From assembly GCF_001650905.1 (NCBI RefSeq), contig NZ_LXYG01000019.1, positions 62,001-126,000 on the forward strand: a DNA stretch of 64,000 nucleotides. The letters run 5' to 3'. Below are positions 4,951-28,246 of the stretch, piece by piece; within the stretch, counting starts at the first letter, position 1; the number at the start of each line of letters is the position of its first letter. The position numbers were made by a program, and so were the translations under genes. Origin of the DNA: Balneola sp. EhC07. Its GTDB lineage: Bacteria > Bacteroidota > Rhodothermia > Balneolales > Balneolaceae. The notes below the pieces were generated by a model. That model saw nothing but the letters and a program-made list of their open reading frames with translations. It ran no database searches and was not told where the DNA came from.

Positions 4951-6110
4951 TCTTTAGTTTTGTAATATTTAAAATCAACCAATGCCAAGTACATCCACGC
5001 TTGAGACCACCTCATGTAAGGAATTTTTATTGTAAAGAAACGGCGTATCTGATAATAAAAAAATCCTTTTTTATGTTGCATGTTATCAATTGTCCAATGA
5101 GCAATTCTATCAGCAAAATTCTCAAATGATGGATCTATATCCTTAAATTTTATAAAAGTGATTATTCCCTGAGATTGGTTATGTATTTCAACTGGGTATT
5201 TTTTTGGTATTCTCCAATAGGATTTTCCACTTGCGTTAAATTGCTCATTCTTATAAAAGAATAACCCCTTTTTTATTTGCTTTAAATATTTATCCCCAAA
5301 ATTACAAATGTCTATAATTTTCATTGCTGATTCCAACACATAACCTTGATGAAAATCCACCTGTTTTTTTTCATTTCCTGTTTCAGGGTCGAGACTATAA
5401 TTCCAACGACCGTCCTCCTTTTGATAGGCCATTGTAAATGCTAAGGAGCTTTCAGCTAAATTTTTATAGTCTTCATTATTGTTTAAAGTATATGCACATG
5501 AAAGTACTTCAGCACCTAAAAGGTTTGCATTATGGCAAACATCTATTTGAATATCTGTATAGCTGATACAACTACCGTATTCATTTTCATATTTAGGCAA
5601 ATCATGAAAAACATATTTAGCAGCACTAAGTATTATTTCTTTTGCTCTTTGATCTTCAGTGATCTTATAATATTCATATAAACCCTTTACAATAAAAGCA
5701 GTAACAACAACAGAAGGGCTATAAGCGGGAACCAATTTAGTTGGGCTTGCCCAATCAAAATTATATCCCCAACAGGCATTCTCATAACCCTGTGACTTAT
5801 TACTGTCTAACCATTCAATAAATCGTTCTGCCTTTTCTAAATATTTTTCATTATTAGTTATTCTAAACATTTTACTAAATGCATTGATAAATAATCCATA
5901 TGCTTTTGGATTGATCCCTTTATCAACCCCAATTATTGGCCTGATATGTATTGGGTTTCTTTTTTGAAACTGAGTTGCTAAAACCGGAATCCACTTACCT
6001 AATTTTTTAAAAGGTATTTTTGAATTCAATGTATCGTAAGGATCGTAGCCCTTAAAATCGTTTGCAATAATATAATCTTCGAGTGCTGTTAAGCTTTTAT
6101 CAATAGTCAC
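4947..6110 (-). CDS. alpha/alpha-barrel-like protein of polysaccharide loci (function unknown)
   Basis: A 387-residue soluble protein rich in tryptophan and aromatic helices (for example 'ACWGYNFDW', 'DGRWNYSLDP', 'YMRWSQAWMYLALVDF'), the look of an (alpha/alpha)6 barrel as in glycoside hydrolases and epimerases. The N-terminal 'FKGYDPYDTLNS' and 'FQKRNPIHIRP' are hallmarks of a family sometimes labelled delta-aminolevulinic acid dehydratase in databases; nothing resembling HemB is visible, so I do not use that name. The only usable start is a GTG at 6110, overlapping the stop of the oxidoreductase gene by one base (TAGTG), which supports coupling. It could be a sugar-chain hydrolase, lyase or epimerase; I cannot tell which. 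Confidence 0.7.
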   Translation of the reverse strand: MTIDKSLTALEDYIIANDFKGYDPYDTLNSKIPFKKLGKWIPVLATQFQKRNPIHIRPIIGVDKGINPKAYGLFINAFSKMFRITNNEKYLEKAERFIEWLDSNKSQGYENACWGYNFDWASPTKLVPAYSPSVVVTAFIVKGLYEYYKITEDQRAKEIILSAAKYVFHDLPKYENEYGSCISYTDIQIDVCHNANLLGAEVLSCAYTLNNNEDYKNLAESSLAFTMAYQKEDGRWNYSLDPETGNEKKQVDFHQGYVLESAMKIIDICNFGDKYLKQIKKGLFFYKNEQFNASGKSYWRIPKKYPVEIHNQSQGIITFIKFKDIDPSFENFADRIAHWTIDNMQHKKGFFYYQIRRFFTIKIPYMRWSQAWMYLALVDFKYYKTKE

Positions 6111-8248: not shown

Positions 8249-8258
8249 AAATCTATTA

Positions 8259-10133: not shown

Positions 10134-10136
10134 AAC

Positions 10137-11237
10137 TTATACTTTATCAAATACTCTTGAAAGATTATTTTCAAATATTGAAACAGTATATTTTTCGAGA
10201 TATTTATCGCGTGCAGCTATACCCATTTTTTTTCTTGTTCCAGTATTATTAATTAAAAATTCGATTTTTTTTGCAATTTGTTCCGGAGCGGCTTTATCGA
10301 CGATAAAGCCCGTTACTCCATTGTCTATAATTTCAGGAATAGAACCTTCATTAGTTGCTACTACAGGCTTTGCAAACTGCATAGCTTCCAAGATTACGTT
10401 CCCCCATGTATCATTCTTTGTAGGGAATACAACTACATCACAAACTGCATATATTTCTTTTTTTTCTTTACCATATTTTGGTCCAACATATTCAACTATG
10501 CTTGTAAGATTATTCTTCTTTAAAGCTATATTCAATTCTTCTTTATTTATGTCCCCCTCACCTCCGACAATGATAGCCCTAAATGGGATACCACGTTTAT
10601 TAAGTAATTTTAAAGCTGATATAAAATCTAAAATACCTTTCGATTTGATCAGATTAGATAGAAAAAGCAACTTTACTTTCTCATTTTCAGTAAGATTTTC
10701 TGTTTTCGGTTTTGGTTTACCCATTTCCGGTATACCATTATTAACTATATGAATTTTTCCATCAAAAACAGGCTTCACATCATATTTTAATAACTCAGAA
10801 AGACAGATTATGTCTGAGTTTTTGAAAGCAAAACGATACAGTAAATACTGTATACGATTACTTGCCATTTCACTTATGCCTTTGCCATGTAAATGGAAAA
10901 GGATTTTTACCCTAAAAAATTTAATAAAGATGATATAGATTAAGTCTCTATAAAAAACAAACCCGATTGGAGAAAGCTGAAAATAAACAACATTAGGTCT
11001 TTCAAATATGAGTTCTTTGTTTAATCTAATGATTGTTTTTAAGAAAATTTTGATCTTACTAAAGTTTACTTTACCCAAATCGCTAACACTATTGGCATAG
11101 CTTAAAGTTATTGATCTAATATCAAAGTTTTGTCTAATACATTCACTGTCATAAACCTGCTTATTCATAAGAGTTGCCCCAGTTATAGGAGGGGGGATTT
11201 TAATTAAAAGAAGGATTCTTTTTTTTATACTTTTCAT
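10137..11237 (-). CDS. glycosyltransferase, GT4-like
   Basis: A 366-residue GT-B enzyme. The donor-binding half shows 'KVLFLSNLIKSKGILDFISA'-type strand and helix, 'IVGGEGD', and the E-x7-E segment 'NVILEAMQFAKPVVATNEG' followed by 'IPEIIDNGVTGFIV'. The N-terminal half begins 'MKSIKKRILLLIKIPPPITG'. A TTG at 11249 would lengthen it by four residues; the ATG at 11237 gives a classic ATGA 4-bp overlap with the preceding gene's stop at 11234 and is preferred. Substrates are not readable from sequence. Confidence 0.9.
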   Translation of the reverse strand: MKSIKKRILLLIKIPPPITGATLMNKQVYDSECIRQNFDIRSITLSYANSVSDLGKVNFSKIKIFLKTIIRLNKELIFERPNVVYFQLSPIGFVFYRDLIYIIFIKFFRVKILFHLHGKGISEMASNRIQYLLYRFAFKNSDIICLSELLKYDVKPVFDGKIHIVNNGIPEMGKPKPKTENLTENEKVKLLFLSNLIKSKGILDFISALKLLNKRGIPFRAIIVGGEGDINKEELNIALKKNNLTSIVEYVGPKYGKEKKEIYAVCDVVVFPTKNDTWGNVILEAMQFAKPVVATNEGSIPEIIDNGVTGFIVDKAAPEQIAKKIEFLINNTGTRKKMGIAARDKYLEKYTVSIFENNLSRVFDKV

Positions 11238-16005: not shown

Positions 16006-16702
16006 CGAAACTCCCTTCAATGTAATTCATGAATTTTACAATGTCATCGAATAAATTAGCGTGTTCCTGAATCCATTTTTCATCTTTATTCCACCATTGA
16101 AACTTGACTAAAAACTCAGTTACATCTTCAGAAAATCTTGTTCTGATCTTTCTTGCGGGTATTCCGCCTACAATAGTATATGGAGCAATGTCTTTTGTTA
16201 CTACCGCTCCGGTTCCTATAATTGCTCCGTCACCGATTGCGATACCATCCATTAAAGATACATTATTTCCAATCCATACGTCATTTCCAATGATATTTAA
16301 AAACCGCCTTTCTTTATCTACATATTTATGCTCTTCAATTTTATCTTCATCCACAAAACTGAACCCAGCCTGTTTTTTTGTTGAATAAAATGCTGGGTGA
16401 CTCGATATAAAATCAGTAGGATGAATACCAAAACTATTCTTTACATTTTGACCGATACTACAATATCTTCCAATTTTTACCCTACTAAGGCTTGTGTTTC
16501 CTGACAGATAACTTCCAAACCCGATTTCGGATCTTGAGATAGAAGAATTCTTCATTATTACATTATTACCCTCAAAATTAGTTCTAAGATCAGCATAAGC
16601 TTTATTTCCGAATTCTAAATTAATATGCCTCCTTTTTAGAATATATCTATAAATGATTCTAATTAATGATAAAGGAACTAATTTACGCATTAAGTTTTTC
16701 AT
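15995..16702 (-). CDS. CatB-type O-acetyltransferase (left-handed beta-helix)
   Basis: A 235-residue hexapeptide-repeat acetyltransferase. Repeats run through 'IGFGSYLSGNTSLSRVKIGR' and 'NDVWIGNNVSLMDGIAIGDG' to 'AIIGTGAVVTKDIAPY', ending with 'IVGGIPARKIRTRF', the standard C-terminus of this family. The insertion 'FGIHPTDFISSHPAFYS' carries the conserved histidine of xenobiotic/CatB acyltransferases. It should transfer acetyl from acetyl-CoA to a sugar hydroxyl in the repeat unit or its precursor. The ATG at 16702 overlaps the previous gene by 20 bp; an ATG at 16690 would shorten it by four residues. Confidence 0.9.
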   Translation of the reverse strand: MKNLMRKLVPLSLIRIIYRYILKRRHINLEFGNKAYADLRTNFEGNNVIMKNSSISRSEIGFGSYLSGNTSLSRVKIGRYCSIGQNVKNSFGIHPTDFISSHPAFYSTKKQAGFSFVDEDKIEEHKYVDKERRFLNIIGNDVWIGNNVSLMDGIAIGDGAIIGTGAVVTKDIAPYTIVGGIPARKIRTRFSEDVTEFLVKFQWWNKDEKWIQEHANLFDDIVKFMNYIEGSFDEV

Positions 16703-17690
16703 TCAAATAGTTTTTCAGTTCAAATATTGATTTTACAAATTTTATTTCCCCTTCCGAATCGGAAATTAATTTTTCTTTTGCCTGCTTAGTAAAATCATCG
16801 TTATTTGGAAGCAAATCGTTTAAGGAAATAACTGAAACCCCTCCCATTTTGGAAGCTGTTACTAAAGACGCTGAAGAAAAAGAAACTACTGCATGCTTTA
16901 CTTTATTAAAGAAAAACTCCACAGGAAGAAATTCCGGCAATGTTTCAAGATTAGATAAAGATCCTATATTTCCCAATTTAGGATGCATTTTAACAACAAA
17001 AGCATATTGTTCTAGTAAGTTATAGATTTCTGATACCTTTTTATTGTATTCTTTTGAATTATGTGAGCCTATTTTGATATTTTGTGCAACAAAAAGGAAA
17101 TTAAAAGGAGAGTAATCAATATTTAATTTTCCGAAAAGCTCGAGAGTTTTTTCATAATATTGATTTGTTTCATACTCTATTACCAAACTATTTTCTTTGA
17201 TGAAGTTTAAATTTAAACTGATCATCACATTTTTCTTTGTTGTCTTTCTTAATTCAAGTGGAACTTTCTCATAAAATACTACCAATAATAACTTTTGGAT
17301 GATCAGTTTAGCCTCCCGAAAATTAGGGATTTTTTTTCTAAAAGAATTATAGACCATTTCAAAATCATGAAAAATTGGTCTTTCCCCTTTCTTAATCATA
17401 GTATGAATTAACAAGAAGCAAAAAACAGCAAATTGAGTATGAGAAAAATGGAGTTCGTCATTATCCACAATATTTAGAATAGTTGTAATTTCTTTTTTAA
17501 CCGCTTTAATTTCTGTAAAGAATGACCTAATCTTGAACAAGCGATGGCGAAGTACCGGTATGTCAATATATTCGCAAGCTTTGAATACATTTTCTGATGC
17601 AGTAATAACCGTAACCGAGTTATTTAGAACAAATTTGTTATACAATGCCAAATTAAGCACCTGATAGGACTGACAATAGAAGTATTTCAT
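16683..17690 (-). CDS. candidate nonulosonate (sialic-acid-like) transferase
   Basis: A 335-residue protein I cannot place with certainty. Two features point to bacterial sialyltransferase-type folds (GT38/GT52/poly-sialyltransferase group): 'VVKMHPKLGN' near residue 235 resembles the HP motif, and 'AVVSFSSASLVTASKMGG' near residue 270 resembles the S-S/T motif; both bind the CMP moiety in that group. The upstream D/E-D/E-G catalytic motif is not obvious; 'IFHDFEMVYNSF' sits about where it would be expected. It starts at an ATG at 17690 (a TTG at 17696 is less likely). Position next to wzx and the nonulosonate genes fits a CMP-nonulosonate-dependent transferase. It could also be an unrelated GT-B enzyme. 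Confidence 0.55.
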   Translation of the reverse strand: MKYFYCQSYQVLNLALYNKFVLNNSVTVITASENVFKACEYIDIPVLRHRLFKIRSFFTEIKAVKKEITTILNIVDNDELHFSHTQFAVFCFLLIHTMIKKGERPIFHDFEMVYNSFRKKIPNFREAKLIIQKLLLVVFYEKVPLELRKTTKKNVMISLNLNFIKENSLVIEYETNQYYEKTLELFGKLNIDYSPFNFLFVAQNIKIGSHNSKEYNKKVSEIYNLLEQYAFVVKMHPKLGNIGSLSNLETLPEFLPVEFFFNKVKHAVVSFSSASLVTASKMGGVSVISLNDLLPNNDDFTKQAKEKLISDSEGEIKFVKSIFELKNYLNEKLNA

Positions 17691-17710
17691 AATCAATTAA
17701 AATCTCGAAA

Positions 17711-19138
17711 TTAACCAGTTTTACTAATTCTAGGCAGATAAGGTTTTAGATATTTGAAATAAACAAAAACAGTGATTGCTAAAATTATTAACGATTTTAA
17801 ACCTAGGCCAATCAATTTTACATCAAAAGACAGAAAATTACTGCTTAAAAAGAAAATACTACTCATTAGGACTGTAAATAGAATAATAAACCATAGTTTC
17901 ATTTTAATTGGATAAAATTTTCTCGATAATATAATTTTTACACATATATCAAATACGTAGGTGATAAAAGTAGACCAAGCAGCACCTATTATACCAAACC
18001 TTGTTATTAACACGTAATTCAGAGCTAGATTTATCACCGCCGAAAAAATAGAGATATACATTACAATTTTAGTATTCTTCATTTGATAAAATGAAAGATT
18101 ATAAAAAGCAGACATCTGGGAAGCCACAAAACCCAAAGAAACGATAGGTATAATGATATGAGCCCGACTATATTCTGAAGGAAATAATAGTGAAATTACG
18201 TCTTCGCCAAGAATACTTACAACAAACCCTCCAAAAATAACTACCGACATAAATGCCGTACTTAGCTGAGTTATTTTCCTTTCTACCTTTTCTGGATCGT
18301 CAGAGGTATTTACCAATTTATAAAAATAAGGGTCAAAGGCTTTCTTAAAAGCCATTGAAAAAATCAATACTAAACCAGCTATTTTATAGCCTAGTGAATA
18401 TACACCTACCGATTGCAAATCAGTAAACCTTTCTAAAAATACTCTATCAGACAGATTCATTACCCACGCTGATAAATTTGCCGGTATCATTGGAAGCGAA
18501 AATGCAAGGGCCACTTTTATATATTCTACTTTAAATGTGAGACGGATAAAACGTAGTGTGACTCCAACATATATCAGCGCCATGACAACCTCACCTAGTA
18601 AATATCCCTGTAAATATCCTACAGCACCAGCTTCTAAACCAACCACAAAAAAAGTAATACCCAGATTAGTCACAATGAAATGAAGTAAAGATAAACTTAC
18701 GTAATTCTTTGCCTTTTCTTTTACTTGTAAATAAGCTAAAGGAATATTACTAAAAACAGAAAAAAATGAAGCTCCAATAGCTAATGCAAAATAGGGATAA
18801 AATGATATTGAAGAATAAATCAAACTTACAATTGGGCTACCCACAAAAAGTAAGATCGTAGCTAGAGATGCCAATAAAAAAATTGTAACAGCTAAAGTGC
18901 CTAAAAATTCTTCTCGCTCCTTTTCATTGTAATCATAAATTAACCTGAAAATAGATCTACTTAGAGAAAAGGTAAAAAAGATTACCAAAACACCATTCAA
19001 AGCTAACAAAGAATTTATGATTCCATACTCTTCAGTACTTAGATAGGAGGTGTATAATGGAAGTAGAAAAAAAGATGCTACTTTAGGTAAAACATTTCCT
19101 AAAGTATAAAAAAAAGAGTTCTTAATTAGCTGTGACAT
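17711..19138 (-). CDS. wzx: repeat-unit flippase (Wzx, polysaccharide transporter family)
   Basis: A 475-residue membrane protein with about 12-14 hydrophobic segments and the typical opening 'LIKNSFFYTLGNVLPKVASF' followed by 'LLPLYTSYLSTEEYGII', the signature of the MVF/PST flippases that move lipid-linked repeat units across the inner membrane. 'FSLPMIPANLSAWVMNLSDR' in the middle is also typical. It starts at an ATG at 19138, overlapping the SGNH hydrolase gene by 13 bp. Together with Wzy, Wzc and an SLBB protein it defines a Wzx/Wzy-dependent export route. Confidence 0.93.
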   Translation of the reverse strand: MSQLIKNSFFYTLGNVLPKVASFFLLPLYTSYLSTEEYGIINSLLALNGVLVIFFTFSLSRSIFRLIYDYNEKEREEFLGTLAVTIFLLASLATILLFVGSPIVSLIYSSISFYPYFALAIGASFFSVFSNIPLAYLQVKEKAKNYVSLSLLHFIVTNLGITFFVVGLEAGAVGYLQGYLLGEVVMALIYVGVTLRFIRLTFKVEYIKVALAFSLPMIPANLSAWVMNLSDRVFLERFTDLQSVGVYSLGYKIAGLVLIFSMAFKKAFDPYFYKLVNTSDDPEKVERKITQLSTAFMSVVIFGGFVVSILGEDVISLLFPSEYSRAHIIIPIVSLGFVASQMSAFYNLSFYQMKNTKIVMYISIFSAVINLALNYVLITRFGIIGAAWSTFITYVFDICVKIILSRKFYPIKMKLWFIILFTVLMSSIFFLSSNFLSFDVKLIGLGLKSLIILAITVFVYFKYLKPYLPRISKTG

Positions 19139-19830
19139 AATAATTCAGCCAATCGATTTTTTACAAGTTCATGTCCTGCTTTATTTGGATGGTATCCATC
19201 TTCATATATTCTATAATCATATTTTTTTGCATCCAGTGGTAAAATAATCTCAACCATTTTATTTTCTGAACTAATTTTTTTGTAAAAATCATTGTATTTG
19301 TCAACATTTTGTAAAATCTGAGGATTTTTATCTACCATTTTTTCATCAGGGTATGCAATACCTATAATTATTATTTTACTAACCCCAATATTATAGGCTC
19401 TTTCTATGTAGTTATTTATATTAATTTTGAATTTATCAAAAGAAACTAAAGTATTTCCAAGATTTCTTTTCCTTAGTACCTTAATAAGACTTAAATAATT
19501 TGTCTTTATAAGATTTGGAACTCTCGATACCAACTTTCTTTCAAACTCATATAAAAGTCTCGGAGCACAATCTACAATTCCAAGTTGCAATATTATAGTA
19601 TGAGGCAAATATGCTTCCAGACAATCTGCTCCCTTTGGCCAACCATCTACTCCTTTCTTTCCGCCTCCCATGGTGACTAGAATTTCTGTAGTTAGTTGCC
19701 GCTTAAAAAATGAAATGAAATCAAAATCAGGAAACTCCTTTTTAAGCTTAAAAAACCATGTATCCTCATATTTATTAAGATGGCCCGGCAAGCATAATGA
19801 ATCTCCAATACAAAGAACTTTTTTTTCCAT
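19126..19830 (-). CDS. SGNH/GDSL-like hydrolase
   Basis: A 234-residue soluble protein of the SGNH fold. Block I is 'KVLCIGDSLCLPGH' with the nucleophile serine at about residue 11; the oxyanion glycine lies in 'TMGGGKKGVDGW'; 'ILQLGIVDCAPR' sits where block III normally reads GxND; and 'DGYHPNKAGHELVKNRL' supplies the Asp-x-x-His pair at the C-terminus. No signal peptide is visible, so it should act in the cytoplasm, perhaps as a sugar O-acetylesterase or O-acyltransferase on a nonulosonate or on the lipid-linked unit (inference). It sits between the YhcH-like gene (8 bp gap) and wzx (overlap). Confidence 0.8.
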   Translation of the reverse strand: MEKKVLCIGDSLCLPGHLNKYEDTWFFKLKKEFPDFDFISFFKRQLTTEILVTMGGGKKGVDGWPKGADCLEAYLPHTIILQLGIVDCAPRLLYEFERKLVSRVPNLIKTNYLSLIKVLRKRNLGNTLVSFDKFKININNYIERAYNIGVSKIIIIGIAYPDEKMVDKNPQILQNVDKYNDFYKKISSENKMVEIILPLDAKKYDYRIYEDGYHPNKAGHELVKNRLAELLCHS

Positions 19831-19838
19831 CTATTAAA

Positions 19839-20276
19839 TTACTTTTCAAGCATTGGAATTTTAAAAACAATTTTTTTAACAATCTGCGGCTGTTTAATTA
19901 AGCCTCCTGTAACATGGGCTTCATTTGTAAATAAAACAATAAAATTGCCCTTTCTTAAAATTAATTTTTCATCAACCGCCCCTTCAAAAAGTTGATAATC
20001 ATCATTCTCCATGTACTCTGTAACGGGTTTTAGATTGGTCGTGTCCTGAATTCCAATATATTCTTCCCCCTCCAAAATATAATGTACATCAATGTACCTT
20101 TGGTGGTTTTCAAATTTTGATAAATCAAATTTTTTTGTCTCATATTCAAGGTGAATTGCCTTTATGGTATCAGGAAGAAGTTCTTCGTCCATGCCTGCAT
20201 TAACCCATACTATAAGCTTATTAAATTCTCTACTGATTTTATATCTTTCTAAATCAGAAATTTGATCTTTAATCAT
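19839..20276 (-). CDS. YhcH/YjgK/YiaL family protein (NanQ-like sugar-acid anomerase)
   Basis: A 145-residue cupin-like protein of the YhcH/YjgK/YiaL family (DUF386). Family marks are 'FENHQRYIDVHYILEGEEYI' near residue 55, 'LFTNEAHVTGGL' near residue 113 and 'VKKIVFKI' at the end; the glutamate and histidines of the metal site are present. E. coli YhcH (NanQ) opens and interconverts anomers of N-acetylneuraminate, and YhcH homologues normally sit in sialic-acid catabolism. Here the gene lies in a nonulosonate biosynthesis run, its start overlapping the stop of the cytidylyltransferase by one base (TAATG). A role in presenting the right anomer to the CMP-transferring enzyme is a reasonable inference. 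Confidence 0.88.
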   Translation of the reverse strand: MIKDQISDLERYKISREFNKLIVWVNAGMDEELLPDTIKAIHLEYETKKFDLSKFENHQRYIDVHYILEGEEYIGIQDTTNLKPVTEYMENDDYQLFEGAVDEKLILRKGNFIVLFTNEAHVTGGLIKQPQIVKKIVFKIPMLEK

Positions 20277-21073
20277 TATTTATAATATCTAGCTTTGATT
20301 TCTTTGATATTGCTTAAGTTTCTAGAAAAGAAATTATCAATTCTTTGTACGACTTCCTTATCAAGAGCAAGTTGTGTTCTGTGTTTATGTATTTTTTCGA
20401 AATCAGGGTTTTCACTTAATACATTAATTACCTCATGATATGAAGGAACAGCTGAAGCAGGAAAAAGTGAATATATTTTCTCTATAAACTGATAATCTTC
20501 TAGATAATCTGTTGTAATCCTTAATTCTTGTCTATTATAATATTTCTCTACTTCAATTTTATGAGTATCAAATACTTCTGGTCTATTTATAAGTGTACCC
20601 CATATTTCAGTATCTACTTCTTTTTTAATCTCACAAATTGTCTTTAAAGCTTCAGGGCGTATACCATATACTGCACATCCTATTGGTAATCCTTCAATGT
20701 AAATAAAATCATTTTTTCCCTTTTTAGCCTGATCTACAACAAGGTTTGCGTGGTGAATACTAAATAATGGGTTCTCCCCCGTAATATTAATTATATATTC
20801 TAAACCATAAAATTCAGCGGCATCACTTAGTCTTTTAAGCACATCCATCTCACTACCCAGATAGTAGTAGATGTTATTTTTCTTTGCAACATCTACGAGT
20901 GTTTTATCTTGTGGATTGGTAGAAGTACAGAGTATAATCTCAGAAATATCAGTGACTTTTTTACATCTCTCTATCACTCTTTCAATTATACTTTTACCAT
21001 TTAAATCCAAAAGTAATTTTAGAGGCAGTCGTGTTGATTTTAGACGAGCCGTAATAAGAAAGCCAATTTTCAT
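20276..21073 (-). CDS. SpsF-like cytidylyltransferase (candidate CMP-nonulosonate synthetase)
   Basis: A 265-residue nucleotidyltransferase of the SpsF/CMP-KDO synthetase group. 'FLITARLKSTRLPLKLLLDL' is the CTP-binding P-loop-like opening (arginine and lysine conserved), followed by 'GKSIIERVIERCK', 'IILCTSTNPQDK' and 'IINITGENPLFSI' in place of the usual TGDxPLxD metal site. The second acidic residue of that site is replaced by serine, which is worth noting. It is the only CMP-sugar synthetase-like gene in the locus, immediately downstream of the SpsE-like synthase (3-bp gap), so it may activate the products of one or both NeuB-type synthases. Confidence 0.85.
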   Translation of the reverse strand: MKIGFLITARLKSTRLPLKLLLDLNGKSIIERVIERCKKVTDISEIILCTSTNPQDKTLVDVAKKNNIYYYLGSEMDVLKRLSDAAEFYGLEYIINITGENPLFSIHHANLVVDQAKKGKNDFIYIEGLPIGCAVYGIRPEALKTICEIKKEVDTEIWGTLINRPEVFDTHKIEVEKYYNRQELRITTDYLEDYQFIEKIYSLFPASAVPSYHEVINVLSENPDFEKIHKHRTQLALDKEVVQRIDNFFSRNLSNIKEIKARYYK

Positions 21074-21076
21074 GAT

Positions 21077-22129
21077 TTATTTAATAAACTGTTCAAAATT
21101 ATTTTTTATAAATTCAAACTTCACATTTGAATAATCTATAATTTCATCTTTTGCTATTTCCTTATTGGCTCTCAATCCGATCAACTTAGGTAAATCATTT
21201 TGCGACAAACTACTACTCTCATTTGTCCTTTTGAAGGCTATATTCTTAAGGGTAATAGTTTCATTTTCTTGAATATCTTCTTTGGCCACAATAGCTTTTT
21301 TCATGGGGCCGGTATTGCCATATTTTAATTCTGCATCTGACATTTGAAGAGGATCATCTCCAAAAGTCTTATAAGCTATAGAATGTAACTCCTTAATTCT
21401 TTTCATTTGTTCTAAACTAACTGCAGCCTGTGAATCAACCCTATCTTCACCAAAAGTGTGTGTAAAATGTTTCTCTAAAACATTAAAACCCATTGCCGCA
21501 GCAAAAGAACTTATTGATGGGTTATCTGAATCCGAAGGGTCACTATGGTCAGCATAACCTATCGGATAGGCAAATATTTCTTTGAGAATATTCATGCGGG
21601 ATAATTTTACATCGGAAGGATGAGTTGGGTAATTTTGGAATCCATGCATCAAAAAAATGTCTTTTTGGTTGTGTGCTTCTAAATAATCAATGGCATACTT
21701 TATTTCTTCTATTGTTGAACCTCCTGTACCTAATATTACAGTCCCATGAAACTTTGAAGCCTCTTCGAGCAGGAAAACATCGTTGATCCCAGTTGCATGA
21801 ATTTCAATAGCATTTATTTCTATATCTAATCTATTCACCCACTTTATACTTTTAACATCATTGCAAAGTAGTACTAAATCTAGTTGCTTAGAATAAGCAT
21901 ATTCGATTATCTCTTTCCATCCGCTTTCACTAAAACACCATTTCCTTATTGTTTCAATTACTTCATGGTTTTCTACCATATAATCATTTAATTCAAGTAA
22001 CAAATGAAACTTGATTGCATCTAATTTTAGATTAAAGGAATGATCAATCAACTCTTTTAAAAACTCCTTATTACCCATATGGTGAAAAGCAGTTTCTCCA
22101 ATTATATACGGTCTATTTTTTGGTATCAT
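21077..22129 (-). CDS. divergent NeuB/SpsE-family synthase with SAF domain
   Basis: A 350-residue sialic-acid-synthase family protein that should condense phosphoenolpyruvate with an aldose. The TIM-barrel part (about 1-270) keeps the catalytic lysine ('AIKFHLL'), the metal histidines ('GYADHS' and 'LEKHFTHTF') and 'LMHGFQNYPTHPSDV', the counterpart of the usual LHCxxxYPTP. The usual opening EAGVNHNG is changed to 'GETAFHHMGN', and the usual GPDHxxS substrate loop to 'EDRVDSQAAVS'. A SAF (antifreeze-like) domain follows from about residue 280 ('GPMKKAIVAKEDIQENE'). It differs clearly from the second, canonical NeuB-type enzyme at 24273, so it probably uses another sugar. It sits in a run with SpsF-like and PtmE-like genes. 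Confidence 0.88.
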   Translation of the reverse strand: MIPKNRPYIIGETAFHHMGNKEFLKELIDHSFNLKLDAIKFHLLLELNDYMVENHEVIETIRKWCFSESGWKEIIEYAYSKQLDLVLLCNDVKSIKWVNRLDIEINAIEIHATGINDVFLLEEASKFHGTVILGTGGSTIEEIKYAIDYLEAHNQKDIFLMHGFQNYPTHPSDVKLSRMNILKEIFAYPIGYADHSDPSDSDNPSISSFAAAMGFNVLEKHFTHTFGEDRVDSQAAVSLEQMKRIKELHSIAYKTFGDDPLQMSDAELKYGNTGPMKKAIVAKEDIQENETITLKNIAFKRTNESSSLSQNDLPKLIGLRANKEIAKDEIIDYSNVKFEFIKNNFEQFIK

Positions 22130-22130
22130 C

Positions 22131-23177
22131 TCAAAATTTTAAAGTCTTAATATCTTCTTGTGCTTTTTTATAATCATCAGGTTTTCCTATATCAAGCCAA
22201 TATTCCGACATTGGATAAGATAATACCTTTTTTTTATCTGCAATAAGCCCTTCCATTAAATCTGTCGTATTAAAAAATAAATCCTTGGGTATTCTGTCAA
22301 TTATCTCCCTTTTCATCAGGTAGATGCCTCCATTTGAATAATAAGTATAAGTAGGTTTTTCTTTAAAACTCATCACATGCCCGTTGGACGTTTCTAAAAC
22401 TGCATAAGGAACATCCACTTTATATGGAATGGTTACTACCGCAAAGTCAGCTTCTTCTTCTTTAAATCGTAAAAAAAAGTTCTCGTAATCTAAGTTCGTG
22501 AGAATATCTGAATTGGTTACTAAGACATAATCATGAATGAAATTATCTATTTTGGATACCGAACCAATGGTACCTAAAGGTTCGTCTTCCCAGACGTATT
22601 CGATGTTTAAGTTTTTATGATTGCCATTACCAAAATATTCTTCGATTTGTTCTCCAAGGTAATTCACTGAAATCCAAAAATCGTCCATTCCGAAAAGAGA
22701 CAACCGTTGAATGTTATGCTCCAGTATAGGTTTATCTCCAATTATCAACAAAGGCTTTGGGGTCTTTTCTGTTAATGGGCGTAACCGAGAGCCTTTTCCA
22801 CCAGCCATAATAACTACATCTACCGGTAAATAGGATTTTAAATTCCCAAAATTTACTACATTAACAATGCGCCCATCTTTATCCAAAATTGGAATAACCT
22901 TAAAATTATTCTCCCTGTATTCTATTACTTTTTGAATATCTTGATCTCCCTTTCTAATGAATCTTGGTTTAGTTTGAATAATATCGTCTACCGGCTTTTC
23001 CAATTCTATTCCTCTTATAAGCCCTCTACGAACATCACCATCTGTCAAAGAGCCGATAAGCCTATTAGAATCATCAACTACAAACACAATAGCATCCTTA
23101 GCCAACTCGTCCAAAACATTTAGTGATTCTCTAATAGAAGTACCTGAAGGGATTAAGTGCTCTTTAAAATGACGCAT
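22131..23177 (-). CDS. CBS-domain sugar-phosphate nucleotidyltransferase (PtmE/LegX-like)
   Basis: A 348-residue protein with two N-terminal CBS repeats (about residues 8-115: 'FVVDDSNRLIGSLTDGDVRR' and 'VIPILDKDGRIVNVV') joined to a nucleotidyltransferase domain ('VVIMAGGKGSRLRPLTEKTP' at about 120-140, 'TNSDILTNLDYENF', 'YWLDIGKPDDYKKA'). In Campylobacter the same arrangement (PtmE/LegX) makes GDP-glucosamine, the starting nucleotide sugar of the CMP-legionaminate pathway. Its location with LegB, LegC, LegH, LegG and LegI supports that role here. The CBS pair may sense a nucleotide. It overlaps the legG-like gene by 14 bp. Confidence 0.88.
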   Translation of the reverse strand: MRHFKEHLIPSGTSIRESLNVLDELAKDAIVFVVDDSNRLIGSLTDGDVRRGLIRGIELEKPVDDIIQTKPRFIRKGDQDIQKVIEYRENNFKVIPILDKDGRIVNVVNFGNLKSYLPVDVVIMAGGKGSRLRPLTEKTPKPLLIIGDKPILEHNIQRLSLFGMDDFWISVNYLGEQIEEYFGNGNHKNLNIEYVWEDEPLGTIGSVSKIDNFIHDYVLVTNSDILTNLDYENFFLRFKEEEADFAVVTIPYKVDVPYAVLETSNGHVMSFKEKPTYTYYSNGGIYLMKREIIDRIPKDLFFNTTDLMEGLIADKKKVLSYPMSEYWLDIGKPDDYKKAQEDIKTLKF

Positions 23178-24276
23178 AGTTATTCTTCAATATTTTAACA
23201 ATTCTTTTTGCAGTGTTAGATTTCTTATAAATATTAGCTCCATTAAATGATCCCAGATGTTTCACTTCCTCAATGCTCTTTAATATTTCTTTAGAACTAA
23301 AAGAACAATCTACTACATTTGTACTCTTGGCTCGTCCTTTTTGCCTGTTTCCCACGTTTATTACATACTTCTCGAAAGAAGCCGCTTCTATGATACCACT
23401 TGAAGTATTACCTACTAAGAATTCTGAATACTTCATTGCATTGAAATAATAAGTTTTACCAAAGCTTTCAATACATAGAAGTTGTTCTGGGATTTCATTT
23501 TTCAATTCTTCAATAGCATTTCGAAATATCTTTCCATTCGTGTCTGCATTTGGCATCGTAATCACCAAAAAATATTCATTGCTCATTTCTTTCAATGCGG
23601 ACTTCATTTCCAGTGCATACCTTTGGTTTTTATTGATATCTACCGTTTCAGGGTGAAAAGTTATCAAAACGAATGGGCCATAAGGGAGATTAAATTTATT
23701 TTTAAAATTTTCTTCCCCCATAAATTGGAATTCTTCAATACTATCTAAGCTAAGAGATCCTACATTATATATATGGTCTCTATTATTAATTATTGACTGG
23801 ATTCTTTTTTTATAAGCTTCAGTTGAAGAGAAATGAATTTTTGAGGCTAGGGTAATTTGATGCCTGTAGATGTTATCAATGGCTCCTAGTGTCGTTTCTC
23901 CGCCATGCAAATGCACAAATTTCACTCCAAATGGGATACCCGCTTGTACCGCAGCTGACACTTCAAACCGATCACCCAAACAAAATACCAAATCAAATTT
24001 ATTTATTGACCAATAATCAGAAAATTTTGTTGCTGTCAGCCCATAGGAAGTGCTTATTCCATTTGGATTGTCATTTAATAAAAGAGATTGAATGAGATCT
24101 ATATTACTAAATCCTGTTTTTTTTATTTCAGAAATCGTTTCACCATGAAAGTGTGAACCGTGGGTACCAAAGGCAATGATCTTTATATCAAAAAACTCAT
24201 CCTTTTCCATTTGCTTAAGTAACGGAAGGTAAATCCCAAAATCAGCTCTCGAACTTGTAAGAACTCCAATTTTCAT
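23164..24276 (-). CDS. legG: hydrolysing NDP-sugar 2-epimerase (LegG/NeuC family)
   Basis: A 370-residue enzyme that should release a free 2,4-diacetamido or N-acetyl mannosamine-type sugar from its nucleotide, providing the substrate for the NeuB-type synthase. It starts 'MKIGVLTSSRADFGIYLPLL', the NeuC/LegG hallmark, with 'VFCLGDRFEVSAAVQAGIPF', 'HLHGGETTLGAIDNIYRHQI' and 'FLVGNTSSGIIEAASF' further on. An ATG at 24291 would add five residues; I prefer the ATG at 24276 because it gives an ATGA overlap with the LegI stop at 24273 and begins at the conserved start. With LegB/LegC/LegH in the same run, the di-amino substrate is more likely than plain ManNAc. Confidence 0.93.
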   Translation of the reverse strand: MKIGVLTSSRADFGIYLPLLKQMEKDEFFDIKIIAFGTHGSHFHGETISEIKKTGFSNIDLIQSLLLNDNPNGISTSYGLTATKFSDYWSINKFDLVFCLGDRFEVSAAVQAGIPFGVKFVHLHGGETTLGAIDNIYRHQITLASKIHFSSTEAYKKRIQSIINNRDHIYNVGSLSLDSIEEFQFMGEENFKNKFNLPYGPFVLITFHPETVDINKNQRYALEMKSALKEMSNEYFLVITMPNADTNGKIFRNAIEELKNEIPEQLLCIESFGKTYYFNAMKYSEFLVGNTSSGIIEAASFEKYVINVGNRQKGRAKSTNVVDCSFSSKEILKSIEEVKHLGSFNGANIYKKSNTAKRIVKILKNNYASF

Positions 24277-25301
24277 TCCAATGAATCCCATGTAAGAATT
24301 TCCATTGTTTCATATGGTCTATTCACAGCCTTACCAATAATATCTTTCCACTTCATCGGAGAGATTCCATTACCTGGTCGAAGTGGTATAATATCTTCTT
24401 CTTTAAGAATTTCCCCTGCTTCAATAGCACGATTAGTGTGAATACTTTTTCTGGCAACCTGTTTATTTTCGGCTTCACTTGGGCTAGGTTCTTTTTTTCC
24501 GTTACCAGAAATTGCCTTCTCAGTATTTCTAATTGCTGTAACCATATCCCTAAGCTCTCCTGGTTCTAATGAGGCCCGGTGATCAGGTCCCGGTAAATTA
24601 CGATCAAGCGTGAAGTGTTTTTCTATGATTTTCGCTCCCAATGCAACCGCTGCTACAGGGACCTCAATTCCTAATGTATGATCAGAATATCCAACCTGTA
24701 CCTTAAACCGTTCTGCGATTGAATTCATAGCTTTCAAATTAACATCTTGCATTGGTGTTGGGTACTCTGTATTACAATGTAACACCGTGATATCGTTTTT
24801 TGTCAAACCATAATCGGTTAATACCTTTAATGCAGACTCAATCTCTTGCATATCAGCCATACCTGTTGAAAGAACCACAGGTTTTCCAGTTTCAGCTAAA
24901 CACTTAAGATATGGATAATTAGTAATTTCTCCAGACGGGCTTTTAAAAAAAGGAAGAGCAAATTGATTCAAAAAATCTATCCCCTCGACATCAAAAGCTG
25001 TAGATAAAAACTGGATTTCTCTTTTTTGGCATTCATTTATCAATGTTTGATGATCTTTCTCACTAAGCTCAAGAGACTTCAGCATGTTATACTGACTATC
25101 ATCTTCATTATCAATATTCTTAGATTGATATTTTGCCTTTTTAGCAGCTTTACTAACAATCTTATCTGCTCTAAATGTTTGGAATTTTACAATATCCACA
25201 CCTGCTTTTGAAGCTACATCAATAAGCTCAATAGCCTTGTCTATATCACCATTGTGATTAACTCCGGCTTCAGCAATTATAAGCACTCTATCAAAATTCA
25301 T
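24273..25301 (-). CDS. legI: N,N'-diacetyllegionaminate/N-acetylneuraminate synthase
   Basis: A canonical 342-residue NeuB-family synthase that condenses phosphoenolpyruvate with the 2-epimerised sugar. All marks are present: 'IIAEAGVNHNGD' at the N-terminus, 'VDIVKFQTFRADKIV', 'LHCNTEYPTP', 'VGYSDHTLGIEVP', 'IIEKHFTLDRNLPGPDHRAS', then a C-terminal SAF domain from about residue 285 ('ARKSIHTNRAIEAGEIL', 'RPGNGISP'). Specificity between neuraminate and legionaminate cannot be proved from motifs; the neighbouring LegB, LegC and LegH point to legionaminate. It overlaps the acetyltransferase gene by 4 bp on one side and legG by 4 bp on the other. Confidence 0.94.
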   Translation of the reverse strand: MNFDRVLIIAEAGVNHNGDIDKAIELIDVASKAGVDIVKFQTFRADKIVSKAAKKAKYQSKNIDNEDDSQYNMLKSLELSEKDHQTLINECQKREIQFLSTAFDVEGIDFLNQFALPFFKSPSGEITNYPYLKCLAETGKPVVLSTGMADMQEIESALKVLTDYGLTKNDITVLHCNTEYPTPMQDVNLKAMNSIAERFKVQVGYSDHTLGIEVPVAAVALGAKIIEKHFTLDRNLPGPDHRASLEPGELRDMVTAIRNTEKAISGNGKKEPSPSEAENKQVARKSIHTNRAIEAGEILKEEDIIPLRPGNGISPMKWKDIIGKAVNRPYETMEILTWDSLE

Positions 25302-25915
25302 ATTATTCGACCTGGATTACCCACAATTTTACTTCCATTCTGAACATTATCTAAAACAACTGCAGCCGCTCCGACTATTACGTCACTTCCAATCTCAACC
25401 CCTTCTTTAACAACAGCATTCGCACCAATAAATGATCGATCTCCTACTTTCACATTGCCTGCCAATACTGCACCTGGAGCAACATGTACACTGTTGCCTA
25501 TTTTACATTCGTGTTCAATAATGACTCCAGTATTCAAAATTACAGCTTTTCCAATTTTAACCATTGGGTTAATTGAAGTACCAGCCGCAACAAAAGTCCC
25601 TGCCCCAAATTCTACTTTAGAACCAACATTCGAAGATGGGTGAATAACTGTTAATAATGACTCCCTTTTTAAAGTCAATAACTCGGTAATTCCTTCTCTA
25701 ATTTTATTGTCACCAATTCCCAGAACAAATTCGAAACCGTTATCCCAACCTTCAAAATTTGAATTACCCTCAAACCCAATATATTCAAGCTTAAATGGAT
25801 TTTTGGCTTGCTTATGTTTTTCGGTATAACCAAAAATCTCAAAACCTGCTTTCTCTGCAGCGTCAAGTACGACAAATGAATGTCCTGAATATCCAATGAT
25901 TACTTGCTTACTCAT
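25298..25915 (-). CDS. legH: NeuD/PglD-family sugar N-acetyltransferase (LegH-like)
   Basis: A 205-residue acetyltransferase with an N-terminal nucleotide-sugar-binding Rossmann-like part ('QVIIGYSGHSFVVLDAAEKA', 'FVLGIGDNKIREGI') and a C-terminal left-handed beta-helix ('AGTFVAAGTSINPMVKIG', 'NSVHVAPGAVLAGNVKVG', 'VIVGAAAVVLDNV'). The catalytic histidine lies in 'GVIIEHECKIG'. In the legionaminate pathway LegH acetylates the 4-amino group of the product of LegC. It overlaps legC by 8 bp and legI by 4 bp. Confidence 0.92.
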   Translation of the reverse strand: MSKQVIIGYSGHSFVVLDAAEKAGFEIFGYTEKHKQAKNPFKLEYIGFEGNSNFEGWDNGFEFVLGIGDNKIREGITELLTLKRESLLTVIHPSSNVGSKVEFGAGTFVAAGTSINPMVKIGKAVILNTGVIIEHECKIGNSVHVAPGAVLAGNVKVGDRSFIGANAVVKEGVEIGSDVIVGAAAVVLDNVQNGSKIVGNPGRII

Positions 25916-27059
25916 TAATAATCACACTACTTGGAATATTTACGATTCGACCTTCTAAATACTCTGCATTTTTTTGTGTATCACGAAAACAATGTGCATA
26001 CATAGGCAATTTGTGCATCAACTGCCAAATTGGTCGAGTCATGACACCTTTTTTATTTGTTTGATTGAGAAACAGATCCCGCTCTTTTCGGTCATTTAGT
26101 TCTACACACATTAACCAATAATTTGCTTTGGTATCTGGATTCTCAGTTCTGAATTGAATCCCTTTTTCTTCAAAAAATGACTCATATCTTTCGGCCAGTT
26201 TTCTTTTATTTTCTATAAATGAGTTTAATTGTTCCAATTGGGCACATATCAAAGCTGCATTCAAGTTTGGCATTCTGTAATTGTGACCAACTTCATCATG
26301 TATATATTCGTACTTGTGATTTTTTTTCGCAGTAGTTGTAAGGTGTTTAGCAAAATCTCCTGATTGTTTATCATTCGTTACAATTGCTCCTCCCCCTCCT
26401 GCAGTTACAATCTTGTTACCATTAAAAGAATAAATTCCAAACTGTCCAAAACTGCCGGTTGGTTTACCATGGTAGTTTGAACCAATAGATTCAGCAGCAT
26501 CTTCTACCACTGGAATATTCCATTTATCACAAACTTCAAGAAGTTCATTCAAATGTACCGGAAATCCAAAAGTATGCATTGGCAAACATGCCGAAATTTT
26601 GCGGCCTGTTCTATTATTATAACAACCTTCCTCCCTTAGTTCCCCATACTCTTCAAGAAATGACTCTACCGCTTTAGGAGACAGCCCCATTGTGTCCACA
26701 TCTACATCCAAAAAAACAGGTTTAGCATTATTATAAGCAATAGCATTAGCGGTGGCAACGAAAGTAAGTGCTTGCGTTATTACTTCATCACTTTCCTTAA
26801 CCCCAGCCAAGCGAAGTGCAACTTGAAGTGCCGCTGTCCCATTAACTACAGCTACAGCTCTTTTCGTTTGAGATATTTCAGCCATCATCTCTTCAAACTT
26901 ATCTACATAAGCCCCTACCGAGGAAACAAAAGTAGACTCTATTGTTTCCAAGACATACTTCTTTTCGTTGCCCAGAAAACGAGGCTCGTGTAGTGGGATG
27001 AAATCAGTTGTTTTATACTGCTCCTGAACAAATTCTATAAATTTCTCTACTTGATTCAT
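25908..27059 (-). CDS. legC: LegC-type PLP-dependent sugar aminotransferase
   Basis: A 383-residue DegT/DnrJ/EryC1/StrS-family aminotransferase. It puts an amino group on C4 of the 4-keto sugar made by LegB. Typical features are 'VVNGTAALQVALRLAGV' for PLP-phosphate binding, 'PVVEDAAESIGSNYHGKPTG' with the PLP-pyridine aspartate, and 'GIYSFNGNKIVTAGGGGAIV' with the Schiff-base lysine. The N-terminal 'LHEPRFLGNEKKYVLETI' is typical of LegC. Its ATG overlaps the stop of legB by one base, so the two are coupled. Confidence 0.94.
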   Translation of the reverse strand: MNQVEKFIEFVQEQYKTTDFIPLHEPRFLGNEKKYVLETIESTFVSSVGAYVDKFEEMMAEISQTKRAVAVVNGTAALQVALRLAGVKESDEVITQALTFVATANAIAYNNAKPVFLDVDVDTMGLSPKAVESFLEEYGELREEGCYNNRTGRKISACLPMHTFGFPVHLNELLEVCDKWNIPVVEDAAESIGSNYHGKPTGSFGQFGIYSFNGNKIVTAGGGGAIVTNDKQSGDFAKHLTTTAKKNHKYEYIHDEVGHNYRMPNLNAALICAQLEQLNSFIENKRKLAERYESFFEEKGIQFRTENPDTKANYWLMCVELNDRKERDLFLNQTNKKGVMTRPIWQLMHKLPMYAHCFRDTQKNAEYLEGRIVNIPSSVIINE

Positions 27060-28246
27060 TACATCTTAGAATCTAAATATTTACCAGTCTCCTTATGATC
27101 AAAACCAGAAAGCAGATCATGAAAAAGATTTACCAAATCAGCTTTTGTCCAATTAAGACTTTCCTTCATACTTTGAACTTTTTTTAAGAAATATTCCAGT
27201 TTTTCTTCTTCAAAACTGAGAGCACTTTTAACAATTCCCAAATTTTTAAACCTTTCTAAATCAAGTCTTTCACCTTCTACAAAAAACTCCTCAAAATCTT
27301 TTTCACCAGTAGTATCACTCTTTGTGAACAAACAAGGCCATTTTCCTTCTTGCGGTAAAACATCAACCAATTCCCTAGCTTCATCTTCACTAGAACACAA
27401 ATAAGCTTCATACCCCCTCATATCCAAATATTTAACAGCAATTTCGGAAAAAGTGATTAAATGTAGGTCTTCACTTAATTTTGGAAAAAAAATATCCCGA
27501 TTATCTCCCAATAAGCAGGACATCAAACACAATTCCCCTGATTCTTGCGGGGTGACGAAATAGCGTTTAATATCATTTGGAGCAACTACAGGCTGTTTTT
27601 TTTGGATACGCTGGTTAAAGCTATGCAAGAGCGAACCGTCGGAAAAAGCAACATTCGCAAATCGGGCAGTAGAAATATCAATACTCTGACTTTCTCGCAT
27701 CAGAAAAAGCTCCATAATTCGTTTAGAAGCACCCATCATATTTACAGGATTAGCCGCTTTATCCGTTGAAACGCAAAAATATTTCTTAGTTCCTTTATCT
27801 CTAGCCTGCTGTATGGTTTTAATCGTATTCAAAATATTTACCTCCACCATTCTCATAAGGGTAAAAGGATCTTTTTCACTTCTTACATGTTTCAATGCTG
27901 ACAAATTTAATACGTAATCATATTGCCCATCAGCTTTTATAAAAGCATCGTATTCGAACGAACCAGCATCAAGTGCAAAGGTTTTAAATTCACCATTTAT
28001 ATACCCTAATGAACTCCGAAGATCGCGAACCAATTCTACCATGTTATTTTCACTAATATCAACAACATGCAATTTTTTTGGGTTTCTTTTGAATATTTCC
28101 TTTGTAACTGCTTGTCCAATCGAACCAGCTCCACCAATTACTAAAAATGTCGAATTAGATACTTGCTCATTCAATTCTTTTTCCTTGACAGAAATATCAC
28201 TTTTAAACAGTTCTTTTTTTCTACCGATAAGGTTTATAACATCCAT
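27059..28246 (-). CDS. legB: NDP-GlcNAc 4,6-dehydratase (LegB-like)
   Basis: A 395-residue short-chain-dehydrogenase/epimerase of the FlaA1/PglF-LegB branch. NAD(P) binding shows 'FLVIGGAGSIGQAVTKEIF'; 'STDKAANPVNMMGASKRIME' carries the catalytic region, with Met in place of Tyr in the YxxxK motif as in PglF/WbpM-type dehydratases. It removes water from the NDP-GlcNAc to give the 4-keto-6-deoxy sugar, the first committed step to legionaminate. The C-terminal tail beyond residue 300, with the 'TSDTTGEKDFEEFFVEGE'-like region, is typical of the LegB group. ATG at 28246, 4 bp after the gmd stop. Confidence 0.92.
   Translation of the reverse strand: MDVINLIGRKKELFKSDISVKEKELNEQVSNSTFLVIGGAGSIGQAVTKEIFKRNPKKLHVVDISENNMVELVRDLRSSLGYINGEFKTFALDAGSFEYDAFIKADGQYDYVLNLSALKHVRSEKDPFTLMRMVEVNILNTIKTIQQARDKGTKKYFCVSTDKAANPVNMMGASKRIMELFLMRESQSIDISTARFANVAFSDGSLLHSFNQRIQKKQPVVAPNDIKRYFVTPQESGELCLMSCLLGDNRDIFFPKLSEDLHLITFSEIAVKYLDMRGYEAYLCSSEDEARELVDVLPQEGKWPCLFTKSDTTGEKDFEEFFVEGERLDLERFKNLGIVKSALSFEEEKLEYFLKKVQSMKESLNWTKADLVNLFHDLLSGFDHKETGKYLDSKM

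Follow-up and report, generated by a model that had tools for sequence, protein, structure and literature searches.

The systems closest to the one described here are routes to nonulosonic acids and their cytidine monophosphate (CMP) forms. In Bacillus subtilis, an SpsF-type enzyme is reported to act in the CMP-legionaminate pathway, a six-enzyme route described with one NeuB-type enzyme, SpsE, and no second NeuB (PMC7439481). The same paper mentions the guanosine diphosphate (GDP)-linked CMP-legionaminate pathway of Campylobacter jejuni. In Vibrio B9-25K2, the SpsF domain of an SpsF/aldo-keto-reductase protein has been proposed to stand for the missing NeuA of a pseudaminic acid cluster (PMC7371886). 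A finished nonulosonate can also be isomerised, as in the 8-epimerisation of pseudaminic acid by EpaA/EpaB (PMC12053666), and in Escherichia coli YhcH opens the ring of N-acetylneuraminate (Neu5Ac), supplying the open form to the aldolase (PMC8141875). Our subject is an operon of Balneola sp. EhC07, which lies in a stretch of 64,000 nucleotides (NZ_LXYG01000019.1; hereafter the window) from a draft genome of 20 contigs that is 98.56% complete. Here a legionaminic acid route, complete with its ordinary synthase LegI, is joined by a divergent NeuB paralogue, which we call NeuB2, an SpsF-type cytidylyltransferase and a YhcH protein of the DUF386 anomerase family. That the NeuB2-SpsF cassette replaces LegF is, on our comparison of loci, well supported.

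The B. subtilis SpsE-SpsF pathway shares with this operon an SpsF-type cytidylyltransferase that serves legionaminic acid in LegF's place (PMC7439481). Because SpsF is already reported for legionaminate there, the new part is NeuB2: the window operon has two NeuB-type genes where that pathway is described with one. Set against the C. jejuni pathway mentioned in the same paper, the window is without LegF and has NeuB2, SpsF and YhcH instead. The partner of SpsF also differs, being an aldo-keto reductase in the Vibrio protein (PMC7371886) and a NeuB paralogue here. We found no description of a NeuB paralogue paired with SpsF in the open-licence literature searched, mostly at the level of listings.

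Comparison across genomes shows that NeuB2 and SpsF keep together. In the window's phylum NeuB2 is uncommon, occurring in 4 of 296 genomes, and a single scan of an 84,980-species collection yielded 44 relatives, from phyla that include Bacteroidota, Balneolota, Pseudomonadota, Bacillota, Omnitrophota, DPANN and Nitrososphaerota. With two duplicates removed, the final set comprises 37 core proteins, from several bacterial phyla and one archaeon, and nine early-branching NeuB2-like proteins. The core is made up of the window's NeuB2, three relatives from genome searches (L008-L010) and 33 loci of the 84,980-species scan. L025 and L047 were left out as the same loci as L024 and L010, as were the short duplicate loci L001-L007 and L056-L085; L022 is without the N-terminal motif and L044 ends at a contig end. 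SpsF is present in 35 of the 37 core loci, and in the two exceptions, L012 and L044, the sequence stops no more than 130 bases from NeuB2. The two genes are adjacent in 34 of the 37; NeuB2 comes first in 24 loci and SpsF in 11, and since both gene orders occur, the link has outlasted rearrangement. PtmE is found in 30 of the 37. An ordinary NeuB accompanies NeuB2 in 32, and in each of the five loci without one (L019, L029, L030, L034 and L039) NeuB2 lies no more than 1.5 kb from a contig end on one side; the comparison shows an ordinary NeuB wherever a core locus is not cut near NeuB2. Four of the nine early loci (L050, L053, L054 and L055) carry NeuB2-SpsF fusions, recognised by Pfam in L050 and L053 and by profile in all four, and each of these also holds a separate ordinary NeuB; the other five have SpsF adjacent. 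Profiles place an ordinary NeuB in seven of the nine early loci, the early protein itself being excluded. In pseudaminate-type loci the ordinary NeuB groups with PseI (L041 in the core, L053 and L055 among the early loci), so that, with partners of both the legionaminate and the pseudaminate type, the cassette is not confined to a single kind of nonulosonate.

The case for replacement comes from loci that share PtmE, the final gene that the window operon has in common with the LegF-type operons of its relatives. A sample of 394 genomes of the window's phylum contained 44 with a PtmE-like gene at E ≤1e-50. NeuB2 lies near PtmE in four of these, and the PtmE loci of the other 40, some of which end at contig ends, make up the comparison set without NeuB2. 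A LegF/NeuA-type gene stands somewhere in 36 of these 40 loci (the exceptions are L095, L106, L122 and L125) and immediately after PtmE in 24, among them loci of same-family relatives; the PtmE proteins concerned are up to 83% identical to the window's. LegF occurs in just one of the 37 core NeuB2 loci (L026). In the PtmE-selected sample this amounts to 0 of 4 loci with NeuB2 against 36 of 40 without (Fisher p=5e-4); when the loci of the 84,980-species scan are added, LegF is in 1 of the 30 core loci that bear PtmE, compared with 36 of 40 (Fisher p=2.7e-14). Both tests count loci as independent although the loci share ancestry. The core-locus counts for LegF, SpsF, YhcH and ordinary NeuB were identical when recounted with profiles. 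On this comparison of gene content, the cassette and LegF are mutually exclusive in the sampled loci.

A genome-wide profile search of the window genome gave two PF03102 (NeuB) matches and one PF02348 (CTP_transf_3) match, SpsF itself. The PF02348 search found no LegF, NeuA or KdsB elsewhere in this draft genome. The original prediction had noted a single CMP-transferase-like gene, and SpsF is indeed the genome's only CTP_transf_3 match, with no standard NeuA or LegF found elsewhere. The PF02348 search was extended to thirteen other NeuB2 genomes. G223, like the window genome, has SpsF alone as its CTP_transf_3 gene, and the one match in each of these two drafts is our reason to reject a LegF hidden elsewhere. 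The remaining genomes have a KdsB-like gene (judged by score and by eye) plus the cassette SpsF, except for G398 and G403, where no KdsB-like match is among the matches listed. G124 has an additional SpsF-like gene, and weak extra PF02348 matches of 21 to 33 bits occur in G124, G394 and G403.

NeuB2 (21077..22129, minus strand, 350 aa) lies above the Pfam cut-offs for both NeuB (116.4 bits, cut-off 22.1) and the SAF domain (32.8 bits, cut-off 21), and well below those of the equivalogs. It scores 153.1 bits on the N-acetylneuraminate synthase model TIGR03569, where the cut-off is 399.65 and the operon's own LegI reaches 486.7, and 101.3 bits on the pseudaminic acid synthase model TIGR03586 (cut-off 340.25); the best E-value of TIGR03569 on 36 core relatives is 1.8e-51. 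In a quick tree search, with partial rows under 240 aa removed and Shimodaira-Hasegawa-like approximate likelihood ratio test (SH-aLRT) values as its support, the 37 core proteins form one clade (99), while 40 rows of ordinary synthases (NeuB1) stand together with four reference structures beyond a second branch (98) and the early proteins fall between. Two of the references sit on long branches that make their exact placement unsure. The tree thus separates NeuB2 from all LegI proteins and from the NeuB, PseI and SpsE references, and NeuB2 does not group with ordinary legionaminate or pseudaminate synthases, so the divergent second synthase of the original prediction is divergent indeed. The predicted fold is the ordinary NeuB fold. 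The AlphaFold2 (AF2) model, with a predicted local distance difference test score (pLDDT) of 93.2, matches Neisseria meningitidis NeuB with a VIA Z of 32.0 and a root-mean-square deviation of 4.6-4.7 over 324 residues, and PseI with a VIA Z of 29.8, at 22-25% identity to N. meningitidis NeuB and PseI; the Foldseek E-value is about 2e-25. A pseudogene or chance open reading frame was also considered, and is ruled out by the tight operon spacing, the model's pLDDT of 93.2 and 15 invariant columns across 36 sequences.

The difference lies in the pocket, which we describe from sequence alignment, numbering residues as in N. meningitidis NeuB. LegI, NeuB and PseI (the N. meningitidis and C. jejuni enzymes) share with NeuB2 the fold, the SAF domain, the metal histidines, Lys53, Glu25 and Asp247. 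Core NeuB2 proteins retain K53, H215, E234, H236 and D247 in 37 of 37, and E25 in 36 of 37, one row being truncated. We take H215 and H236 to be metal ligands and E25, K53 and D247 to act on the sugar side. What sets NeuB2 apart from those enzymes is the replacement of the residues that contact phosphoenolpyruvate (PEP) and of Glu134, together with a new His131, Gln184 and Arg245. In all 37 core proteins T110 has become L or M, K129 has become E or D, S213 has become A or T, E134 has become G, C, S or A, and N184 has become Q; H131 is new in 37, R245 in 36 (with one K) and H29 in 35. At the same positions the 42 NeuB1 rows have K129 in 41, S213 in 41 and E or D134 in 39, and the window's LegI keeps K129, S132, E134 and S213. 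Sugar-side Arg314 is present in 25 of the 37 core proteins against 39 of the 42 NeuB1 rows. Residues 110, 129, 131, 132, 182 and 184 surround PEP in NeuB, and this area is conserved among the neuraminate, legionaminate and pseudaminate synthases, 132, 182 and 184 less so (PMC7371886); ligand-lining residues are also listed in PMC6795526. In the alignment, the PEP area of core NeuB2 is altered and the metal side unaltered. Of the earlier statement that NeuB2 keeps its metal histidines and catalytic lysine, the histidines and Lys53 stand, whereas the second active-site lysine, Lys129, is a glutamate (Glu or Asp in all 37). The motif changes noted at the same time are both seen, ETAFHHMG replacing EAGVNHNG and RVDSQAA replacing GPDHRAS. 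Without its PEP-contact residues, core NeuB2 may no longer be a synthase.

This uniform pocket bears on two further explanations. One is that NeuB2 is a fast-evolving, redundant legionaminate synthase that uses LegI's substrates, with SpsF as an ordinary LegF substitute. SpsF's reported part in the B. subtilis CMP-legionaminate pathway (PMC7439481) is in its favour, as is one locus, L095, which uses SpsF for LegF without NeuB2. We nevertheless give this explanation very little credence: a redundant copy should drift rather than hold new invariant residues, core NeuB2 forms a single clade (SH-aLRT 99) apart from NeuB1 and the references, its alternative pocket is uniform, and the link with SpsF and YhcH would be left unexplained. 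The other is that NeuB2 is a non-catalytic or allosteric partner of LegI, in a domain-swapped dimer, or of SpsF, passing the product on. NeuB2 does accompany both proteins, early relatives are fused to SpsF, and NeuB dimers are domain-swapped, with SAF reaching into the partner's active site (PMC6795526). Moreover, NeuB1 and NeuB2 distances correlate across 31 loci (r=0.70, matched in 0 of 5000 permutations). Genes of one operon are inherited together, however, so such a correlation is expected anyway and is not decisive, and a protein without catalysis sits badly with metal histidines, Lys53, Glu234 and Asp247 kept in 37 of 37 and with the gain of an invariant histidine and a near-invariant arginine. 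We regard it as improbable.

The reading we favour, tentatively and in the knowledge that it is somewhat more apt to be wrong than right, is that the cassette, with or without YhcH, replaces LegF in a serial pathway from LegI through NeuB2 to SpsF, with NeuB2 acting on the finished acid and not on PEP. LegI would condense PEP in the usual way to give the nine-carbon acid. NeuB2 would act on LegI's acid in its open-chain form, with no PEP condensation; YhcH may assist with ring opening, the part that it plays for the Neu5Ac aldolase in E. coli; and SpsF would couple CMP to the modified acid. We infer the place of NeuB2 in the pathway from gene linkage and residues, and we guess its reaction. 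Since LegI is an ordinary synthase and no activating gene other than SpsF was found, we expect SpsF to receive LegI's acid. For NeuB2, which is linked to SpsF and has no PEP site, the simplest position is between the two, and a module found with both legionaminate- and pseudaminate-type synthases makes a role at their common C1-C4 end plausible. The original prediction had envisaged two parallel branches, with one enzyme activating two acids or a new keto-acid branch. The comparative data favour a single serial pathway, given NeuB2-SpsF adjacency in 34 of 37 core loci and fusion in four of nine early ones, the replacement of LegF, an ordinary NeuB in 32 of 37 and the loss of the PEP contacts.

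As to chemistry, a metal-bound open-chain nonulosonate beside the new histidine and arginine would suggest something aldolase-like, perhaps an aldolase-type epimerase. Our most specific guess is a metal-dependent retro-aldol/aldol reaction at C4 that would give a 4-epi-type isomer, both the site and the kind of reaction being guesses. EpaA/EpaB offer a precedent for isomerising a nonulosonate after the ordinary route; unlike NeuB2, that gene pair is not called NeuB-family in the abstract (PMC12053666). Somewhat less likely than the serial pathway as such is that we are looking at a new activity of the NeuB fold: a PEP-independent, metal-dependent isomerising or remodelling of a finished nonulosonate (for example at C4, by retro-aldol cleavage and re-addition) which, with ring opening by the DUF386 protein, would let SpsF make a CMP-nonulosonate that does not come from LegF pathways, in a cassette that serves legionaminate- and pseudaminate-type routes in bacteria and at least one archaeon.

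YhcH (19839..20276, minus strand; Pfam DUF386, 96.4 bits) fits such a role. It belongs to the YhcH/YjgK/YiaL subfamily TIGR00022 (83.4 bits, cut-off 45.5) and lies below the N-acetylneuraminate anomerase equivalog NF040884 (71.1 bits, cut-off 160). It occurs in 16 of the 37 core loci (16 of the 30 that bear PtmE) against none of the 40 PtmE loci without NeuB2, and a profile recount agrees. The likeness to E. coli is that of a DUF386 gene beside an aldolase-type nonulosonate enzyme, if NeuB2 is such an enzyme; the difference is that E. coli YhcH, with NanA, serves catabolism (PMC8141875), whereas the window's YhcH sits in a biosynthetic operon.

Several observations weigh against placing NeuB2 after LegI. 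No YhcH is present in 21 of the 37 core loci or in any of the nine early ones, some of these loci being cut by contig ends. L026 combines NeuB2 with a LegF-type gene, the latter beside another NeuB; the early loci L038 and L046 likewise have LegF-type genes, and in G398 and G401 extra NeuA-type genes sit with other nonulosonate genes. L095 (positions 5284-10210, genome G021) is a legionaminate locus that has an SpsF-type gene but lacks both LegF and NeuB2, flanked by a class-III aminotransferase and PtmF/PtmA-like genes, and SpsF alone can therefore replace LegF. The early relatives score similarly on the NeuB1 and NeuB2 profiles, have K129 in nine of nine and D134 in six of nine, so that the acid is mostly kept, and are probably still synthases. 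In two early loci (L051:9995-11750 and L052:8616-10342) the NeuB2-like gene stands beside SpsF with no other NeuB in the stretch, and in L052 it is at least 3 kb from both ends; an SpsF-linked NeuB on this side of the tree can thus be the only synthase, and these two proteins are possibly an ancestral, still synthetic form. Taken together, the residues, profile scores and single-NeuB loci of the early relatives mean that SpsF linkage alone is no proof of a role after the synthase. G182 and Q184 are shared by all nine early proteins, and since these keep K129 all the same, the pocket appears to have changed stepwise, the core differing from them in having lost both K129 and the acidic residue at 134. 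Finally, although the PEP contacts are lost in core NeuB2, its new residues might hold PEP otherwise.

These points feed the main rival, which descends from the original prediction: that NeuB2 is a second, specialised synthase, binding PEP in a new way or using another donor, which turns another aldose into another keto-acid sugar, with SpsF activating both acids or that of NeuB2 alone. The NeuB fold and metal site are fully retained; early relatives keep K129, and two of the nine are the only NeuB of their stretch, beside SpsF, which favours this explanation for the ancestor; and SpsF, as the sole activating gene found, would serve both acids. Yet the PEP contacts are replaced in 37 of 37 core members, and core NeuB2 lacks an ordinary NeuB only where a contig end is 1.5 kb away or less, which would be unexpected for an independent sugar. 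Were SpsF to serve NeuB2's product alone, the legionaminate pathway of the window genome and of G223 would be left without a known activating enzyme. For the core family, we think a second synthase unlikely.

SpsF itself (20276..21073, minus strand, 265 aa) exceeds the PF02348 cut-off at 75.6 bits against 22.6 and falls below the KdsB equivalog TIGR00466 (37.4 bits, cut-off 155.2). Its metal site had been called unusual, and the motif TGENPLFS is present. The glutamate, though, is a mild change: in the 35 SpsF proteins of core loci (one SpsF-like open reading frame of L049, outside the cassette, was excluded from the alignment), position 100 is Asp in 27 and Glu in eight. Aspartate-to-glutamate changes are common among SpsF relatives, and we discarded the motif as evidence. 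The C-terminal Asp189 and Asp193 are invariant in all 35.

All genes of the operon lie on the minus strand, in the order LegB, LegC, LegH, LegI, LegG, PtmE-like, NeuB2, SpsF, YhcH, SGNH-like, and neighbours overlap or sit a few bases apart. The legionaminic acid route is complete (LegB, C, H, I and G plus the PtmE-like enzyme), and through PtmE it matches the C. jejuni gene list. The two NeuB-family reading frames and the SpsF-type frame are where the original prediction had put them, with Pfam matches that agree. The 4,6-dehydratase (27059..28246; Pfam Polysacc_synt_2, 148.8 bits) we presume to be LegB from its position and the order of the pathway. It is followed by a LegC-family aminotransferase (25908..27059; TIGR04181, 541.8 bits, cut-off 420), a LegH/NeuD-type acetyltransferase (25298..25915; TIGR03570, 193 bits, cut-off 160.8), LegI (24273..25301, 342 aa; Pfam NeuB, 331.5 bits, plus SAF) and a LegG/NeuC-type hydrolysing 2-epimerase (23164..24291; TIGR03568, 368.7 bits, cut-off 235.9). 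The next gene (22131..23177) encodes CBS and nucleotidyltransferase domains (Pfam NTP_transferase 141.8 bits, CBS 31.4 bits), and we take it to be PtmE-like. Beyond YhcH lies an SGNH/GDSL-like hydrolase gene (19126..19830; Pfam Lipase_GDSL_2, 26.5 bits, below the cut-off of 32.9), which recurs in seven of the 37 core loci, in one of them on the opposite strand, and is sometimes a member of the module. A flippase gene comes next, with glycosyltransferases farther along, and the glycan cluster also holds a frame of 337 aa (16683-17696) with no Pfam match and no relatives among the fetched loci.

Other genes keep company with the cassette elsewhere. Proteins of about 450 aa, grouped into one family by single-linkage clustering, are encoded no more than 9 kb from NeuB2 in 17 loci (for example L010:12895-14373 and L020:11902-13278); four scanned members have no Pfam match, a member is also found in the LegF locus L086, and the family is a candidate nonulosonate transferase. 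In Chryseobacterium-type and related cassettes (L010, L045, L042 and L048) the labelled genes include no LegG/NeuC-type epimerase, and the ordinary NeuB belongs to another type, with a GWDH loop. Four mostly archaeal loci encode, from a start 1-2 kb upstream of NeuB2, a protein that has a CxxxCxxC-like cysteine cluster and looks radical-SAM-like by eye (L022:3361-4356, L038:4378-5409, L043:7801-8778 and L046:3565-4563). An aldo-keto-reductase-like gene, again identified by eye, accompanies the cassette in L039, L040, L041, L053 and L055.

A NeuB gene is usually taken to mean that one nonulosonate is made. What the cassette suggests is that a second NeuB can be chemically altered and linked to the activating enzyme as its partner, and wherever the cassette occurs the rule of two NeuB genes for two sugars would fail. 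No enzyme is known to have been assigned to 4-epi-legionaminic acid. If NeuB2 does remodel nonulosonates, it would give a handle on the origin of isomers such as this one and a new tool for glycan synthesis, and the DUF386 protein would gain a biosynthetic role. The exchange of LegF for the cassette, recurring as it does in distantly related microbes, points to an undescribed step in the making of these surface sugars.

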